Origin: Cytophagales bacterium
Lineage (GTDB): Bacteria > Bacteroidota > Bacteroidia > Cytophagales > Cytophagaceae
DNA length: 47,134 nt
Assembly: GCA_013297765.1 (NCBI GenBank)
Contig: JAAFID010000005.1
Coordinates: 1 to 47,134, forward strand
Direction: 5' to 3'
The translations under genes and the position numbers were made by a program. The notes under the pieces are model-generated. The model worked only from the letters and a program-made list of their open reading frames with translations. It had not been told where the DNA came from and searched no databases. How positions within the stretch are numbered: position 1 is the stretch's first letter; every line of letters begins with the position of its first letter. Shown piece after piece: positions 5,401-15,550 of this stretch.

Positions 5401-6444
5401 ATGAAGAAAATTTATAGTATCGTATTTTTAATTTGTGTGTTTATATCGGTCAAACTTCAGGCACAGGATGCCAGTTTTTCTCAATATTATGCTTCGTCAA
5501 TCTACCTTAACCCAGCTATGACTGGAATGGAACCTACGGTGGCATTTTTATCCAACTATAGGCAGCAGTGGCGTAGTATTGTGGTGCCATACGTTACCAG
5601 TCAAGTTTCTATTATTCACCCCATCATTACTCCTACAGGCGGTCGCAACTTGCATGTGGGCGGTGTCGGTTTATCTTTGCTAAACGATGTAGCTGGCGAT
5701 GGTAATTTTAAAACCACAGGAGTCAATGCCAACGGGGCTTATAATCTTTATTTCACACCAGAAGAAGATCAAATAGTAACATTTGGATTACAATTGGGAG
5801 TAATTCAAAAAAGAATAGACTATACCAATTTGCAATGGGGAGAGCAGTACAATCCCTACATTGGTTTTGATGCAACTGTGAATCCTGAAGTTGGTGTAAA
5901 CTCTGGCAAAACGTATGCTGACATTGGTGCTGGTGTAATGTACAATTATGTTGGATTTAAGAAACAAATAAATCCCATAACAGGATTTGTGGGTCTATCG
6001 GCATATCATTTGAATAGCCCTAACGAATCTTTTTATGGAGCTATGGTGGCCAAGCTACCACGGTTGTACAAGTTGCATGGTGGGTTAAATATTCAGGCAG
6101 GTGACAAATTGAAATTTTCTCCAAATGTACTATATATGATGCAAGGTGGCAGAAACCTGCTAAATACGGGGCTGTACGCAACTTTTAATCTTTATGAAAG
6201 AGATGAAAATGTAAAAACATTAATGCCTTCTGAACTGATTGTAGGAGCATGGTATCGCATGAGAGATGCTTTTATATTTTCCGCTGGGGTATCTAATGAA
6301 TGTTATACCATAGCCTTTAGCTACGATATAAATTCTTCAAATATGCGTTCCTATACGCAAGGTCGTGGGGCATTTGAAGTATCATTAAGCGTGCGTAAAG
6401 CAAGAGACAAAAGATTTAAAAGATTCAATACGCCAAGGATTTAA
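5401..6444 (+). CDS. PorP/SprF family T9SS outer-membrane protein
   Basis: The protein has 347 residues with a clear signal peptide (MKKIYSIVFLICVFISVKLQ, cleavage near AQ) followed by the family opening DASFSQYYASSIYLNPAMTG, typical of PorP/SprF. Strand-like beta-barrel segments fill the rest. An upstream TTG at 5380 is possible, but ATG 5401 places the signal peptide at the N-terminus, so I chose it. It starts 35 bases after the adhesin stop and is probably co-transcribed with it. SprF-like proteins help deliver or anchor type B CTD cargo at the cell surface; here the partner would be the adhesin just upstream (inference from gene order). Confidence 0.92.
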   Translation: MKKIYSIVFLICVFISVKLQAQDASFSQYYASSIYLNPAMTGMEPTVAFLSNYRQQWRSIVVPYVTSQVSIIHPIITPTGGRNLHVGGVGLSLLNDVAGDGNFKTTGVNANGAYNLYFTPEEDQIVTFGLQLGVIQKRIDYTNLQWGEQYNPYIGFDATVNPEVGVNSGKTYADIGAGVMYNYVGFKKQINPITGFVGLSAYHLNSPNESFYGAMVAKLPRLYKLHGGLNIQAGDKLKFSPNVLYMMQGGRNLLNTGLYATFNLYERDENVKTLMPSELIVGAWYRMRDAFIFSAGVSNECYTIAFSYDINSSNMRSYTQGRGAFEVSLSVRKARDKRFKRFNTPRI

Positions 6445-9229: not shown

Positions 9230-9841
9230 TTAAAACAAATGAGATGTGTCGTTGGCTTTAACCACAGTATATTCGTTGTTTTCATAGTGCAGCAGATATA
9301 AGCAAAGGTTGTTATGCCCAAATTCGTCCATAGCTTCCAATGGCTTCTTTAGTATTGTTGCGAGCAAAATACGCATTGCTCTTCCATGCATACATATTAA
9401 AATATTCTTTTCTGATTTTCTTGATGCTATAGTTGCTAGAACTGGCATTATTCTTTCTTGAACCTCCCGAGGGCTTTCACCAGTGCCAATTTTAGCATCA
9501 ACATTGCCCGCAGCCCAGCTATTGACCATATCCCAATATACATTGCTAGCCTCGTCGCTAGCAATTTTACCATCCATATCGCCCCAACTGATTTCGTTGA
9601 GCCCAGCAAAAGATTCATGCTCTATCGATTGATCTATAAATAACTGTACCGACTGTTGGCTACGTTTTAGCGTAGAGGTATATACCTTATCAAAAGGTAT
9701 ATTTTTATACTGATTGTAAAACTGCCTTGCCTGTGCACGACCAGTTTTATTGAGGTCTGTATCGACTCTGCCGCCCTGTACTATGCCTTGAAGATTAAAA
9801 TCTGTTTGGCCATGCCTTATCAAATAGATGTTCTTGCCCAC
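9230..9841 (-). CDS. Histidine phosphatase family protein (phosphoglycerate mutase-like)
   Basis: The 203-residue protein opens with the family signature LIRHGQTDFN; His10 is the expected phospho-acceptor. Arg60 (STLKRSQQS), the acidic residue Glu83 (LNEISWGDMDG) and His152 (CMHGRAMR) complete the usual active-site set. The family includes phosphosugar, alpha-ribazole and signalling phosphatases; the substrate cannot be read from sequence. The start is a GTG at 9841, which leaves only two residues before the first beta strand. It is convergent with the OmpA gene and lies downstream of the BspA gene on the same strand. Confidence 0.9.
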   Translation of the reverse strand: MGKNIYLIRHGQTDFNLQGIVQGGRVDTDLNKTGRAQARQFYNQYKNIPFDKVYTSTLKRSQQSVQLFIDQSIEHESFAGLNEISWGDMDGKIASDEASNVYWDMVNSWAAGNVDAKIGTGESPREVQERIMPVLATIASRKSEKNILICMHGRAMRILLATILKKPLEAMDEFGHNNLCLYLLHYENNEYTVVKANDTSHLF

Positions 9842-9942: not shown

Positions 9943-10026
9943 CTACTTTTTCTTGTCCTTATCATCTTCCGATGGGGCAAATACTTTGATTTTTTCGCCT
10001 ATCGTTATTCCCGAAAATACCCCTAC
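9943..10026 (-). pseudogene. Orphan copy of the 3' end of the HlyD adaptor gene
   Basis: This 84-base stretch encodes a 27-residue tail, including SGITIGEKIKVFAPSEDD, then a stop. It closely matches the C-terminus of the HlyD adaptor encoded at 11644-12771 (SGIAKGEKIKVFAPSEDD). At DNA level 45 bases are identical (9956-10000 and 11663-11707), with a 6-base difference near the stop. It begins directly after the BspA stop codon and is in the same frame, so it has no start of its own. I read it as one side of a duplication or insertion that placed the BspA gene at the end of the exporter operon. Confidence 0.82.
9956..10000 (-). repeat. Direct repeat, distal copy (hlyD tail)
   Basis: This 45-base segment is identical to 11663-11707 in the same orientation, and similarity continues imperfectly on both sides. 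The copies lie 1707 bases apart and enclose the whole BspA gene. Confidence 0.92.
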
Positions 10027-11496
10027 CTATTCTTTGATAAACTTAGCTGACTTATTACCAATTTTTACAAGGTAAATTCCTGCTTCATAAGAATTAAAAT
10101 CTATGATTTGCTGCATTTTATTCGTTTTTATTTCATAAACTAGCGTACCTATTGAGTTATAGATGCTGATTGTTTCCAGTAAATTGTAGCCTGAAAGAGT
10201 AAAAATGCCTACAGATGGATTGGGATAAATGTTTAGATTTTGGGTAATAGTGTTTCCCTTTAAATTTTTATAACCAGTTATTAGAGGGCATTTGGTATTG
10301 TCTATTCCCTGCCCTCCATCAGTTATTTTCCAACCTTTACTGATAAGCGTATTCCTCGCTGAAATGCTTTCTGCTGAGTACTTGCTGGAATCGCTATGAA
10401 AAGTTATATTTAATTGAACGTTTTGCGTTGCCCAACCAGTGAGCAAATTATTGTAATTTTCAGTACACAAGTTAGCTCCAGAAAACATATATCTCATATC
10501 TATTACATTCTTGATATTCCATGTGCCGATGGGTTGATTAAACGAAGTCGCATCACGAAACATCTGTTCCATATCGTAAACATTCTCTGTATTCCAGTTA
10601 CCAATAGGTTGATTAAAAGAAGTCGAAAAATAAAACATTTCTTTCATGCTGTTAACTTTGGAAGTTTGCCATTTGCCTAGTGGCTGATTAAAGGCTATAG
10701 CCGCAAAAAACATACCGGTCATATCGGTAACGCTTATAGTATTCCATGTATCTATAGGCATATTAAAGGCTTTAGCCCCATAAAACATGTTAATCATTTT
10801 GGTTACACTGCTGGTATTCCATGTTCCTATGAATTGGTTGAACGAATTAGTCCTTGCAAACATCCAATGCATATCTTTAACATTCCCTGTATTCCAACTA
10901 CCGATAGGTTGATTGAAAGAATCAGCTTCATAAAACATAGCGCTCATATCACTTACGCTCGAGGTATTCCATGTATCTATGGGCTGATTGAAAGCAGTAG
11001 CAAAAGAAAACATACCTGCCATATTAGTAACATTCGAAGTTTGCCATGTATTGATGGGGTGATTGAATGAGGTGGCTTCATAAAACATCCCGCTCAAATC
11101 AGTTATACTTGAGGGCAAATTTTTAGGTACAGATATTAGAGATGTCGCAGTTAAAAAGGCATAACTCAAACTAGTAAGACCAACTCCGTCCCAGCTTTCT
11201 ACACTAATGAGGTTAGGACCTAGGGGTATTTCACGACTTCCAAACCAACTTAATGTACCAGAGATAGTAACAGTAAATGAACCATTAACTGAATAAGTAT
11301 GTGTTTGTGAGCCAGCAGAGGTAAATATCTTTTTTGTGCTACCATCTCCCCAGTCAACTGTTGCGTTCACAGTACCGTTAAGTGGTAGTGCTATTTTCCT
11401 GTTAGAAGAATTTATTTGGTACTTCAGCACCATTTGTGCAAATAGCGACTGAGAATAGAAAAAAAGACTAGCAATAAGTGTAAAAAACTTTAGCAT
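10027..11496 (-). CDS. BspA-type leucine-rich-repeat surface protein, T9SS type A cargo
   Basis: The 489-residue protein has a signal peptide (MLKFFTLIASLFFYSQSLFA), a PKD-like N-terminal segment (VDWGDGS), then eight tandem 25-residue DUF285/BspA-type repeats with the core MF-x-x-A-x-x-FNQPI-x-x-WNT-x-x-V-x-x-M (about residues 135-335) and a degenerate ninth. The last ~75 residues, beginning NIYPNPSVGIFTL and ending YLVKIGNKSAKFIKE, form a type A Por-secretion tail, so it should be exported and attached to the surface. BspA-like repeats often mediate adhesion; the ligand is unknown. The gene lies downstream of the exporter operon on the same strand, between two copies of the hlyD 3' end, suggesting it is a later arrival there. 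Confidence 0.9.
   Translation of the reverse strand: MLKFFTLIASLFFYSQSLFAQMVLKYQINSSNRKIALPLNGTVNATVDWGDGSTKKIFTSAGSQTHTYSVNGSFTVTISGTLSWFGSREIPLGPNLISVESWDGVGLTSLSYAFLTATSLISVPKNLPSSITDLSGMFYEATSFNHPINTWQTSNVTNMAGMFSFATAFNQPIDTWNTSSVSDMSAMFYEADSFNQPIGSWNTGNVKDMHWMFARTNSFNQFIGTWNTSSVTKMINMFYGAKAFNMPIDTWNTISVTDMTGMFFAAIAFNQPLGKWQTSKVNSMKEMFYFSTSFNQPIGNWNTENVYDMEQMFRDATSFNQPIGTWNIKNVIDMRYMFSGANLCTENYNNLLTGWATQNVQLNITFHSDSSKYSAESISARNTLISKGWKITDGGQGIDNTKCPLITGYKNLKGNTITQNLNIYPNPSVGIFTLSGYNLLETISIYNSIGTLVYEIKTNKMQQIIDFNSYEAGIYLVKIGNKSAKFIKE
10494..11092 (-). repeat. 75-bp tandem repeats coding for BspA repeats
   Basis: Eight tandem 75-base units underlie the BspA repeats. Words such as the complement of TTCAATCAACC (FNQP) recur at 75-base spacing with synonymous and small coding differences. 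Such arrays can gain or lose units by recombination. Edges are approximate. Confidence 0.8.
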
Positions 11497-11616
11497 GGTA
11501 GAGATGTTTTAATTTATAAATTAGTTTGTTGAATTTAAGTGAAATATAAATGAAATAAAAGTTTGTACACTTTGTTCCTATTTGTATTATTAACCTCAAA
11601 AGGATAGAAAATCTTT

Positions 11617-11641
11617 GCAAGGCAACCCATTAGTTGCTTGC
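11617..11641 (-). terminator. Probable terminator of the exporter operon
   Basis: The arms GCAAGGCAAC (11617-11626) and GTTGCTTGC (11633-11641) pair with a single bulged base around a 6-base loop. The hairpin lies two bases past the HlyD stop codon, and the minus-strand sequence after it is moderately T-rich. The T-tract is interrupted, so efficiency is uncertain. If it works, it separates the exporter operon from the BspA gene. Confidence 0.5.
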
Positions 11642-11643
11642 GA

Positions 11644-12771
11644 CTACTTTTTCTTCTCCTTCTCCTTATCATCTTCCGATGGGGCAAATACTTTGATTTT
11701 TTCGCCTTTGGCAATTCCAGAAATTATTTCGGTATTGATGCCATCAGAGATACCTGTTTTGATCATTCTTTTTTCAAACACGTCTTTTGCTTTTTCTACT
11801 TCCACCATTACCGTATCGGTTTTGTACTGAATCAGGCTTTCTTTTATGGCAAATACATTGTTCTTTTTTTCCAGCACTATGTCGGCATTGGCACTGTAGC
11901 CTGCACGTATAAACTGATTTTCTTTCAGCATTACTCGGGCTTTTATTTCAAACTGTATAGCCCCTCTGCCATCTTTGTCTAGCGTTTTTCCTTTGGGTGA
12001 AATGTAATCCAAAACCGCTCTAAAGGTATCGCCTTCTATAGCACCAATCGTTACAAGCAAATCCATGCCTTTCCTGATTTTGCCTACTTCTGATTCGTCT
12101 ATTTTGCCTGTGAATTGCATCTTGTCCATTTCGGCAATAGAGGCAATGGTAGTACCGTCGTTGAAATTATTTGATTCTATCACATTCTTACCCACTTTGA
12201 ATGGTACGTCCAGCACCATTCCTGAAATAGTAGTTTTGATAAGCGTATTGGTAGCATTGCCCATGCGTTTAGAAATTCCATCTCTTACCAATTGTAGGTT
12301 GTCTTGGGCGGTGTTCATTTCTTCTTGTGCTGTTTTGTATGTCAATTCTGACTGTTGCAATTCAGAAAGGGCAATTACTTTTTGGTCAAGCAATGCCTTC
12401 AATCTTTCGTAATTTATTTTTGCATTTTCAAAAGCGATTTTTGATTTACTCAGTCTGTCTTCGGCACTGTTCAGATTAATCATATTAGGAATAATGCGTA
12501 CCCTAGCGATGATGTCTCCCTTCTTTACATGCTGCCCTGCCTCTACAAATATTTCTTCCAAAATACCTGAAACGATAGATTTTATTTCTACCTCTTTCTC
12601 TGGAGCAACTGTGCCAGAGGCAACGGTCTTCTTGACTATGGTGGTGGTATATGGCAATTCAGTGGTGTAGGCAACAGGTTTCGGTTTCGACTTGGAATAC
12701 AAAAAATAAAAAGTCCAGCCAAACAATCCTAAAAGTGCTATGCCAATAAATATTTTAAAAAACTTTTTCAT
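11644..12771 (-). CDS. HlyD/MacA-like periplasmic adaptor subunit of an efflux system
   Basis: The 375-residue protein has one N-terminal membrane anchor (about 7-26), a biotinyl-lipoyl-like half motif (VSGILEEIFVEAGQHVKKGD), an alpha-helical hairpin (about 100-170), the second lipoyl half (TTISGMVLDVPFKVGKNV) and beta-barrel and membrane-proximal domains. This is the standard membrane-fusion-protein layout of MacA and RND adaptors. It ends in a charged lysine-rich tail. It is the last gene of the cluster ATPase, permease, permease, adaptor and should bridge the permeases to an outer-membrane TolC-like channel, which is not in this window. The substrate is unknown. A copy of its 3' end lies about 1.7 kb downstream. 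Confidence 0.92.
   Translation of the reverse strand: MKKFFKIFIGIALLGLFGWTFYFLYSKSKPKPVAYTTELPYTTTIVKKTVASGTVAPEKEVEIKSIVSGILEEIFVEAGQHVKKGDIIARVRIIPNMINLNSAEDRLSKSKIAFENAKINYERLKALLDQKVIALSELQQSELTYKTAQEEMNTAQDNLQLVRDGISKRMGNATNTLIKTTISGMVLDVPFKVGKNVIESNNFNDGTTIASIAEMDKMQFTGKIDESEVGKIRKGMDLLVTIGAIEGDTFRAVLDYISPKGKTLDKDGRGAIQFEIKARVMLKENQFIRAGYSANADIVLEKKNNVFAIKESLIQYKTDTVMVEVEKAKDVFEKRMIKTGISDGINTEIISGIAKGEKIKVFAPSEDDKEKEKKK
11663..11707 (-). repeat. Direct repeat, proximal copy (inside hlyD 3' end)
   Basis: This segment of the intact adaptor gene is identical over 45 bases to 9956-10000. Recombination between the two copies would remove the BspA gene and still leave an hlyD gene with a nearly normal tail (inference). 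Confidence 0.92.
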
Positions 12772-12804: not shown

Positions 12805-14067
12805 TTATTCTGCTCTTAATGCTTCTACTGGTTTTATGCTCAATGCTCTTTGGGCGGGTATTAAGCCTGCAAATATTCCCGAAACTACCAACACCGTAAG
12901 GGCTATGATGGCAATATTCAAATCGACCCCTGGGTTTTTGAAGAATACTTCTTTGCCATCCGATGGTGCTTTCTCAATAAGATTATTGATAAGTTCAAGC
13001 AACCCAATACCACAGACTATGCCTATATAGCCTGCCAGCGAGGTCAGCACTACCGACTCCATAATGATTTGGCTCACGATAGCAAAAGGTGTTGCACCTA
13101 TTGCCCGACGAATCCCTATTTCTTTGGTGCGTTCTTTTATAATCACGAGCATAATGTTACTGACCCCAATGACACCAGCTACCAGCGTAAGGATACCTAC
13201 AAACCAAGACAGCCATTTCATACCTACAAAAAGATTATTGATACGGTTGTATTCTTCTTCCAAATTCCAAGAACCCAATGCCTGTGCATCGTCGGGGTGT
13301 ATTTTGTGGCGTTCTTTCAGTAGTTTTAGTACTTTCTTCTGCACGTCTGATGCTTTTACATTTGGCTGTGCGGTGATGCCAAACCAACCTACTTTTTTGC
13401 CCATGTTGAAGGTGTATTGAAAGGTAGAAAATGGTACGGTGATAGATTCTACCTGCTCGTCGTCCGCTCGGCTAGGTTTTTTAAGCAAGCCTACTACTAA
13501 AAAATTTACTTCATTTACTTGTATAAATTTGCCTAATGGATCTTCATTTTTTGCAAACAAAATTTCATAAACTTTTTGTCCTATCACGGCTACTTTTCGC
13601 TTGTCTGTAATGTCGGCTTGATTTATAAATCTTCCTTTTTGCAATTTATAGGTTTCTATTTGGGCATATTCAGGATAATCGCCACTCAGTTTAAAACTGC
13701 CTTCTTTTGTACCACGCATTACTTTTGTAGAGCCGAAAAAATCACCCAATCGATGTCTAGGTGCTATTACATTAACTTCTTTAATATTTTTTTTGATAGC
13801 TTCTAAGTCATCGTTGTCAAAGTCTACTCTTCTACCAGGTTTAAAACCTTTGTACTCTTTGGTAGTAGATTGTACCCAAACAAACACACTGTTAGATGCC
13901 CACGAGTCGAAGCCAGCGTTTACACCATTCTGCATACCATTGCCCGCACCCAGCATGATGAGTAGCATAAATATTCCCCAAAAAACACCAAATGCAGTAA
14001 GAAAAGTACGCAGCTTGTTGCGGCTAAGTGTAGCGTATATTTCTTGCCATTTGTCTAGGTCAAACAT
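12805..14067 (-). CDS. MacB-like ABC transporter permease (second of two)
   Basis: The 420-residue protein has the MacB/FtsX-type topology: a first membrane helix (about 20-45; TFLTAFGVFWGIFMLLIML), a large periplasmic MacB_PCD domain (about 50-280), then three C-terminal helices including the conserved cytoplasmic stretch NIMLVIIKERTKEIGIRRAI and an ending in ALRAE. It is paralogous to the permease at 14306-15550; both start MFDLDKWQEIY. The two probably form a heterodimer served by the shared ATPase. The start ATG lies only three bases from a heptamer repeat array that fills the normal ribosome-binding position, so translation may be weak or coupled. Confidence 0.92.
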   Translation of the reverse strand: MFDLDKWQEIYATLSRNKLRTFLTAFGVFWGIFMLLIMLGAGNGMQNGVNAGFDSWASNSVFVWVQSTTKEYKGFKPGRRVDFDNDDLEAIKKNIKEVNVIAPRHRLGDFFGSTKVMRGTKEGSFKLSGDYPEYAQIETYKLQKGRFINQADITDKRKVAVIGQKVYEILFAKNEDPLGKFIQVNEVNFLVVGLLKKPSRADDEQVESITVPFSTFQYTFNMGKKVGWFGITAQPNVKASDVQKKVLKLLKERHKIHPDDAQALGSWNLEEEYNRINNLFVGMKWLSWFVGILTLVAGVIGVSNIMLVIIKERTKEIGIRRAIGATPFAIVSQIIMESVVLTSLAGYIGIVCGIGLLELINNLIEKAPSDGKEVFFKNPGVDLNIAIIALTVLVVSGIFAGLIPAQRALSIKPVEALRAE

Positions 14068-14070
14068 GTT

Positions 14071-14101
14071 ATGAATTATGAATTATGAATTATGAATTAT
14101 G
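14071..14101. repeat. Heptamer tandem array (ATGAATT)n before the permease start
   Basis: Four perfect ATGAATT units plus three bases, ending three bases upstream of the minus-strand permease start codon (14067). On the mRNA it reads as repeated CATAATT. It is complementary to parts of the array at 14245-14304. Confidence 0.93.
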
Positions 14102-14244
14102 TTTGAATATTGGTGATAGTGATGAGCTAATATATTATTAGTGGAAGTATGTTAAAGAACCAATTTTAAATCTTGAAACCATAATTTATATACTTAATTT
14201 TAAATTACTTACTTAATTATCTATTTACCTATTTACTAATTAAT

Positions 14245-14304
14245 AACTTATAACTTATAACTTATAACTTATAACTTATAACTTATAATTCATAACTCAT
14301 AACT
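14245..14304. repeat. Heptamer tandem array (AACTTAT)n after the first permease stop
   Basis: Six perfect AACTTAT units followed by the variants AATTCAT and AACTCAT, ending one base from the stop codon of the first permease gene (14306-14308). AATTCAT is the exact reverse complement of the ATGAATT unit of the other array. The 143 bases between the arrays are AT-rich and show no ORF. Confidence 0.93.
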
Positions 14305-14305
14305 T

Positions 14306-15550
14306 CTATTCATCTCTTAATGCTACCACTGGCGGTATCTGTGCGGCACGCCTGGCTGGAATAAACCCAGCCAATGCCCCAGAAAACACCAGCAATATTA
14401 CCGCTGCTACGGCTACATTAAAATTTATTTCTGGATTGGTAAATACTTCTTTGCTTACATCAGAGCTTTGCAACCATAAGTTAATCGCCTGCACCACGCC
14501 AACACCCAATGCCAAACCTATGTACCCAAAAACAGAAGTAATGACCACGGCCTCTTGAACTATCAAAGTTATAATAGACCATGGCGTAGCCCCTAGTGCC
14601 TTGCGGATGCCAATTTCTTTGGTGCGGTCTTTTACAACTATAATCATGATATTACTAACACCTACAATGCCTGCAATGATGGTACCCATACCTATTACCC
14701 AAACAAATAATTGAATGCCTGCAAACAGCCCGCCCAGCATGGTGAGCAATTCTGCAAAGTTAAACACCCATACCGCCTTAGGGTCTTTGGGGTCAAATAA
14801 ATGTTTGCTACCCAGAATTTGCTTTACTTTCGTCACCGTTTCGTTGCTGTTGTTGGCATCGGTGTTTTTTAAAGCCAACTTGATATTGTCAAACTCATTG
14901 CCTCCATTAAAAATCAACTGAGCGGTACTAAATGGCACAAAAATACGCCCTTGCCGCCACGGTCTGCCTTGATCTTTAAAGTATCCAATCACTTGAAAGG
15001 GGACACCTTTTAGTATAAAATATTTGCCTACACACGATTCTTTTTTAAATAAGGCTTCATATACATTGAACCCAATTACGGCTACTTTTCGCTTTTGGGC
15101 TACATCATTGTCATTTAGAAATCTACCTTCAGTAATATTAATTTTTTCAATATCTATAAAACCAGCATGGCAAGCCATTACCTGAAAAGATCCTTCATTT
15201 TTTTTGTAAGAAACATAGTTATCGCCCCAGGCATAAAACAAAGCTGTTATTTGGTCTAGGTTGGCAATGTTTTGTTTGATGTTTTTGATATCTTCTTCTA
15301 CAAAATGAATTTTACGACCAGGTTTCATTCCCTTGTAATTCAAACTAGTTTCCCCACTGCCAATTTCAATCATAGATGGACTCATGTTCGCAAAATTACT
15401 TTTTACTCCATTCTCGAAACCCTTGCCTGCCGCAAGCAATATCACCAACATAAATATGCCCCAAGCCACACTGAAACCAGTGAGGAATGTGCGCAATTTG
15501 TTTTTACTGAGGGTAAAATATATTTCTTGCCACTTGTCTAGGTCAAACAT
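14306..15550 (-). CDS. MacB-like ABC transporter permease (first of two)
   Basis: The 414-residue MacB/FtsX-type permease has an N-terminal helix (TFLTGFSVAWGIFMLVILLA), a periplasmic domain and three C-terminal helices around NIMIIVVKDRTKEIGIRKAL, ending ALRDE. Its N-terminus is nearly the same as that of the next gene, which points to an old tandem duplication. It follows the ATPase gene with a 14-base gap, so it is surely in the same operon. Inferred role: with the second permease and the HlyD adaptor, ATP-driven export or extraction across the envelope. Confidence 0.92.
   Translation of the reverse strand: MFDLDKWQEIYFTLSKNKLRTFLTGFSVAWGIFMLVILLAAGKGFENGVKSNFANMSPSMIEIGSGETSLNYKGMKPGRKIHFVEEDIKNIKQNIANLDQITALFYAWGDNYVSYKKNEGSFQVMACHAGFIDIEKINITEGRFLNDNDVAQKRKVAVIGFNVYEALFKKESCVGKYFILKGVPFQVIGYFKDQGRPWRQGRIFVPFSTAQLIFNGGNEFDNIKLALKNTDANNSNETVTKVKQILGSKHLFDPKDPKAVWVFNFAELLTMLGGLFAGIQLFVWVIGMGTIIAGIVGVSNIMIIVVKDRTKEIGIRKALGATPWSIITLIVQEAVVITSVFGYIGLALGVGVVQAINLWLQSSDVSKEVFTNPEINFNVAVAAVILLVFSGALAGFIPARRAAQIPPVVALRDE

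Follow-up and report, generated by a model that had tools for sequence, protein, structure and literature searches.

The window, meaning the whole stretch of 47,134 nucleotides that was analysed, harbors a surface-protein gene directly behind an hlyD gene, and both of these, like the histidine-phosphatase gene that follows them, lie on the minus strand. The hlyD gene (11644-12771) is intact and encodes a HlyD/MacA-type periplasmic adaptor (RND_mfp) of 375 aa (TIGR01730, E=4e-37; HlyD_D23), the genuine terminus of which reads EIISGIAKGEKIKVFAPSEDDKEKEKKK, followed by the stop codon at 11644-11646. From the hlyD stop to the start codon of the surface-protein gene extends a leader/promoter region of 147 nt (11497-11643). 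The surface-protein gene itself (10027-11496) encodes 489 aa, comprising about eight repeats of 25 aa and a type A sorting tail of the type IX secretion system (T9SS); it includes a 75-nt repeat family, and its end on the minus strand reads AAA GAA TAG (10027-10029). The downstream neighbor (9230-9841) belongs to the histidine-phosphatase superfamily and is phosphoglycerate-mutase-like.

The repeats of the 489-aa protein, of 25-26 residues each, are recognized by TIGR02167 with 138 bits (cut-off 30) and by PF03382 with 302 bits, and its C-terminal T9SS type A sorting domain by TIGR04183 with 35.6 bits (cut-off 23) and by PF18962 with 44 bits. The original prediction had called the gene BspA-type, which holds in the loose sense of annotation, but the repeats are of the DUF285/PARCEL type (PF03382; TIGR02167), whereas Tannerella BspA has LRR_5 repeats. 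NCBI names the DUF285 family PARCEL repeat-containing surface protein, and the gene is referred to here as a PARCEL gene.

A direct repeat of the hlyD 3' end

The end of hlyD occurs a second time behind the PARCEL gene, in the same orientation, as had been predicted. The proximal copy (11653-11726, minus strand) is the true hlyD 3' end, and the distal copy (9946-10019, minus strand) is a second one; the two align gap-free over 74 nt with 88% identity and share an identical core of 45 nt (9956-10000 and 11663-11707), with a spacing of 1,707 nt. The distal copy can be read in the same frame onward from the stop codon of the surface gene, where it encodes VGVFSGITIGEKIKVFAPSEDDKDKKK and terminates on a TAG stop at 9943-9945, so that the predicted in-frame second tail is borne out as well. 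The alignment of the two tails scores 56; when the flanks were shuffled 200 times, the highest score was 20. Short tandem heptamers aside, this pair is the sole direct repeat of at least 18 nt in the 47-kb window, and it is the only such pair, with two copies only, in the 3.56-Mb assembly; the locus hence has a locus-specific direct repeat around a single gene. The heptamers in question, TTATGAA and ATAACTT, are repeated in tandem between two MacB-type permease genes (14069-14115 and 14243-14290).

A dispersed or REP-type repeat was considered as the origin of the pair and was ruled out, since the genome has two copies only, and no known RNA family was found at the repeat in the window. The PARCEL gene is the only open reading frame between the copies, where no recombinase gene lies, and neither an integrase or transposase nor a conserved cassette end was found in the insert.

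The similarity of the distal copy to hlyD extends beyond the identical core. In the 27 nt to the left of the 45-mer, 15 of 27 positions match the hlyD tail (56%), a similarity that is reached in 0.06% of shuffles, and the differences fall largely on third-codon or conservative positions. Since these 27 nt are diverged and yet related, homology spans the whole distance from the stop codon of the PARCEL gene to the hlyD stop. The distal copy is therefore a mosaic, its 45-nt core being identical and the adjacent 27 nt only 56% identical. A crossover between two alleles of the hlyD tail, placed inside the core, would leave such a pattern, and later gene conversion would account for it equally well.

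These features bear on another possible origin of the distal tail, namely a second hlyD gene in tandem, or a displaced allele, of which only this relic would have survived replacement by the PARCEL gene. The 27 nt by the stop codon have diverged as a coding sequence would, with S-G-I kept and third positions changed, the tail is in frame and has its own stop, and genes for MacB-type permeases stand in tandem nearby (12805-14067 and 14306-15550). However, only 74-85 nt of such a gene would be left, beginning exactly at the stop codon of the PARCEL gene, the 45 identical nt would require a recent conversion, and the corresponding operon of the genus mate G001 has one hlyD of this type, hence a relic is considered rather unlikely. 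The hlyD of G001, the sole genus mate compared, is 81% identical, has a normal end and lacks an adjacent PARCEL gene, and at the 27-nt segment it is closer to the intact hlyD than to the distal tail. Downstream of hlyD, G001 has different genes and synteny is lost, and neither a filled nor an empty state of the window locus was found among the relatives.

Empty sites and flanking repeats at other DUF285 genes

Arrangements like that of the window occur in the single-contig genomes G102 and G226, and the flanks of their PARCEL genes were searched against 92 genomes of the family to which both belong. In G226, the gene lies between 31-nt copies of a tRNA-Val terminator, one of the repeat copies abutting the PARCEL stop codon as in the window, whereas G175 has a single 31-nt copy, with tRNA-Val and its terminator continuing into the upstream region of the next gene. 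The two flanks in G226 (L193, 3627-5164 and 7158-8994) align to adjoining segments in G175 (L252, 3461-1922 and 1954-101), with an overlap of 33 nt at the junction. In G102, the PARCEL gene lies between 26-nt copies of the terminator of a conserved element of ~145 nt, beside a gene for a LuxR-type regulator. One copy of the LuxR-side terminator is present in G064, G091, G076, and G199, the first three of which also have the left-hand neighbor of the site in common. The single-copy empty sites in the relatives show that the PARCEL genes of G226 and G102 were inserted alone, at terminators, with target duplications of 26-31 nt.

By analogy, these insertions allow the window to be read as the same kind of event. 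They also count against the relic of a second hlyD, since empty sites are demonstrated for the counterparts of the gene in G226 and G102. Highly improbable in view of them is an assembly artefact, in which strain variants or distant pieces would have been joined via the 45-nt repeat: the assembly is indeed a draft of 290 contigs with 2.4% contamination, but both copies are contained in a single 47-kb contig and are bordered on each side by intact genes, and the same arrangement recurs in the two single-contig genomes.

The ~145-nt element beside the LuxR-type gene (L179, 6946-7090, and relatives) shows ~79% conservation in many genomes of the family. No Rfam family corresponds to it, and it is possibly a small RNA or 3' element that has yet to be described. 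DUF285 genes are also found near LuxR/element sites of the G102 type in G432 (L263, contig C228, 1-398) and in G175 (L258, contig C1, 1098-1996), which makes the site a possible insertion hotspot.

DUF285 genes were surveyed more widely in 54 stretches, nearly all from Bacteroidota genomes, by comparing the 500-nt flanks of every gene, and 40 stretches picked for T9SS genes, labelled by profile, and 39 hlyD loci were added as controls. Genes with paralogous neighbors were removed, so that L171, L174, and L198, which have DUF285 or T9SS paralogues nearby, stand outside the count of solitary genes. A flanking direct repeat was found at 9/34 solitary standalone DUF285 genes and at 5/364 other standalone genes (p=1e-7), counts that are to be read with the caveats that the threshold was chosen after the data had been seen, that genes within one stretch are not independent, and that the unsure cases G004, L169, and L182 are included. 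The difference persists when the window is left out (8/33 vs 5/360, p=1e-6) and when the window, G004, and the locus on contig C258 of the window's own genome are all left out (6/31 vs 5/356, p=6e-5). Other T9SS-secreted genes have a flanking direct repeat in 2/32 cases, and the enrichment of DUF285 genes over these is only suggestive (p=0.045 with the window, 0.08 without it).

None of 1,122 mismatched flank pairs reached the threshold, and the repeats flanking DUF285 genes are direct in nine cases and inverted in one. Most of the cases that were checked are locus-specific: the repeats of G102, G140, G226, and G246 are present in exactly two copies per genome, and terminators repeated genome-wide were therefore rejected as their source. 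G004 is an unsure case, as its repeat is located at a contig end and a third copy of 38 nt is present close to the terminus of contig C150; in L169 and L182, a third related copy lies nearby. The repeat in G416 takes in the 3' end of a tRNA-Leu gene. The loci fall again and again at terminators, at tRNA ends and at 3' ends, a pattern suggestive of some preference for targets or of selection.

This recurrence weighs against a further explanation, according to which the PARCEL gene was taken up during the illegitimate repair of a staggered break and the hlyD tail was copied at that time by a local duplication or template switch, with neither carrier nor dedicated recombinase. Fill-in of staggered breaks would give repeats that vary in length and are unrelated in sequence, as is seen among the loci (26-74 nt), and the inserts show no conserved end. 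Repair capture would, however, leave the mosaic identity of the distal copy in the window unexplained, and is regarded as improbable.

Probable insertion at the hlyD end and comparison with known systems

The surface-protein gene together with its promoter is thus best read, by comparison with G226 and G102, as a probable single-gene insertion at the hlyD 3' end, in which the two tails represent the duplicated target. The analogy is strong where it concerns the insertion of one gene and the duplication of its target; where it concerns the mechanism, it is weak. The two tails would be comparable to attL and attR, or to an extended target-site duplication. In the most likely course of events, a donor, either a circle or imported DNA, would have carried the PARCEL gene beside a stretch resembling the hlyD tail and would have recombined within the 45-nt core at hlyD, leaving hlyD intact with the PARCEL gene immediately after it, followed by either the original tail or that of the donor. 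We infer the equivalence to the events in G226 and G102, the direction of the event and the homologous stretch on the donor. The mosaic distal copy counts against this reading, since it is not what a simple target duplication would produce; insertion needs either a crossover in the core between diverged alleles or a later conversion. No recombinase, shared insert end or circle was seen for these DUF285 insertions.

In the other direction, excision is expected from the 45-nt identity: recA-dependent or slippage recombination between the two cores could remove a unit of 1,707 nt (9956-11662, minus strand), consisting of one core copy and the surface-protein gene, and would restore a normal hlyD end. 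The proposal of a cassette brought in by recombination that may be lost again draws partial support from the clean empty sites of homologous genes (G175 for G226; G064, G091, G076, and G199 for G102); among the relatives of the window, neither an empty nor a filled site turned up.

Elements with att sites for tyrosine recombinases enter the 3' ends of tRNA and protein genes, NBU1 and icd-type prophages being examples. The PARCEL insertions resemble integrative elements at gene 3' ends in that the target end is duplicated on both sides and the end of the host gene is restored, and resemble those targeting tRNA genes in their tRNA-Val (G226) and tRNA-Leu (G416) neighbors. Unlike integrative elements, they have no integrase, carry one cargo gene and use a different core at each locus. 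They share with integron gene cassettes that single genes lie between short sites and that gain and loss are possible, but differ from these in having neither an integrase nor a shared attC site, the repeats being unrelated between loci, and in that the PARCEL genes carry a leader, which probably includes a promoter.

The patchy distribution of PARCEL (DUF285) genes has been ascribed to horizontal transfer and shuffling, and in mycoplasmas the genes have been tied to large conjugative islands (Roske et al., 2010; PMC2996958). The window gene has the same 25-residue repeat family (TIGR02167, PF03382) as the genes of that study; in contrast to the mycoplasma genes it stands alone, is T9SS-tailed and is located at the 3' end of a gene. 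The accessible portion of the study reports no flanking target duplication, and a keyword search in it returned neither "target site" nor "Bacteroidetes"; a literature search that took in few subscription papers found nothing relevant on PARCEL-type insertions with target duplication.

While the spread of PARCEL genes by horizontal transfer is already known, the question addressed here is how single genes enter without a visible vehicle. The genes seem to reach gene ends one by one, with later loss being possible, and the clean empty sites, with duplications of 26-31 nt in two genera, provide together with the hlyD-tail pair defined junctions at which mechanism and reversibility can be tested. 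The insertions suggest a general route for the swapping of surface proteins in Bacteroidota, and their interest rises if this route is a dedicated one. As a tentative generalization, the surface-protein genes of the PARCEL type in Bacteroidota, and perhaps further T9SS ones, might be mobile single-gene cassettes that take an undescribed recombination route to terminators and to tRNA, small-RNA, and protein genes at their 3' ends; this route would duplicate 25-80 nt of the target and permit removal, and repertoires would turn over gene by gene.

Further DUF285 loci of the same genus

Three other DUF285 loci are present in the window's own genome, two of which (contigs C27 and C67) are without a flanking repeat, a point that weighs against the insertion reading. 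At the third, on contig C258, an exact 31-nt repeat is found on both sides of the gene, with these two strong copies and weak cousins on contig C91. This repeat (L133, 6075-6105 and 8144-8174) is a REP-like hairpin and flanks a PARCEL gene behind accD; its strict REP-like pattern occurs nowhere else in the genome. On contig C67, a paralogous PARCEL gene (L092, 4734-6852) is split into two frames, and the break, inside the repeat array, coincides with a tandem duplication of 127 nt (copies at 5573 and 5700), which is not a multiple of three. In the genus mate G001, a PARCEL gene is located directly behind a gene for an IS200-like Y1 transposase (PF01797), possibly of the REP-associated type (L127, contig C31, 85-642 and 758-2287).
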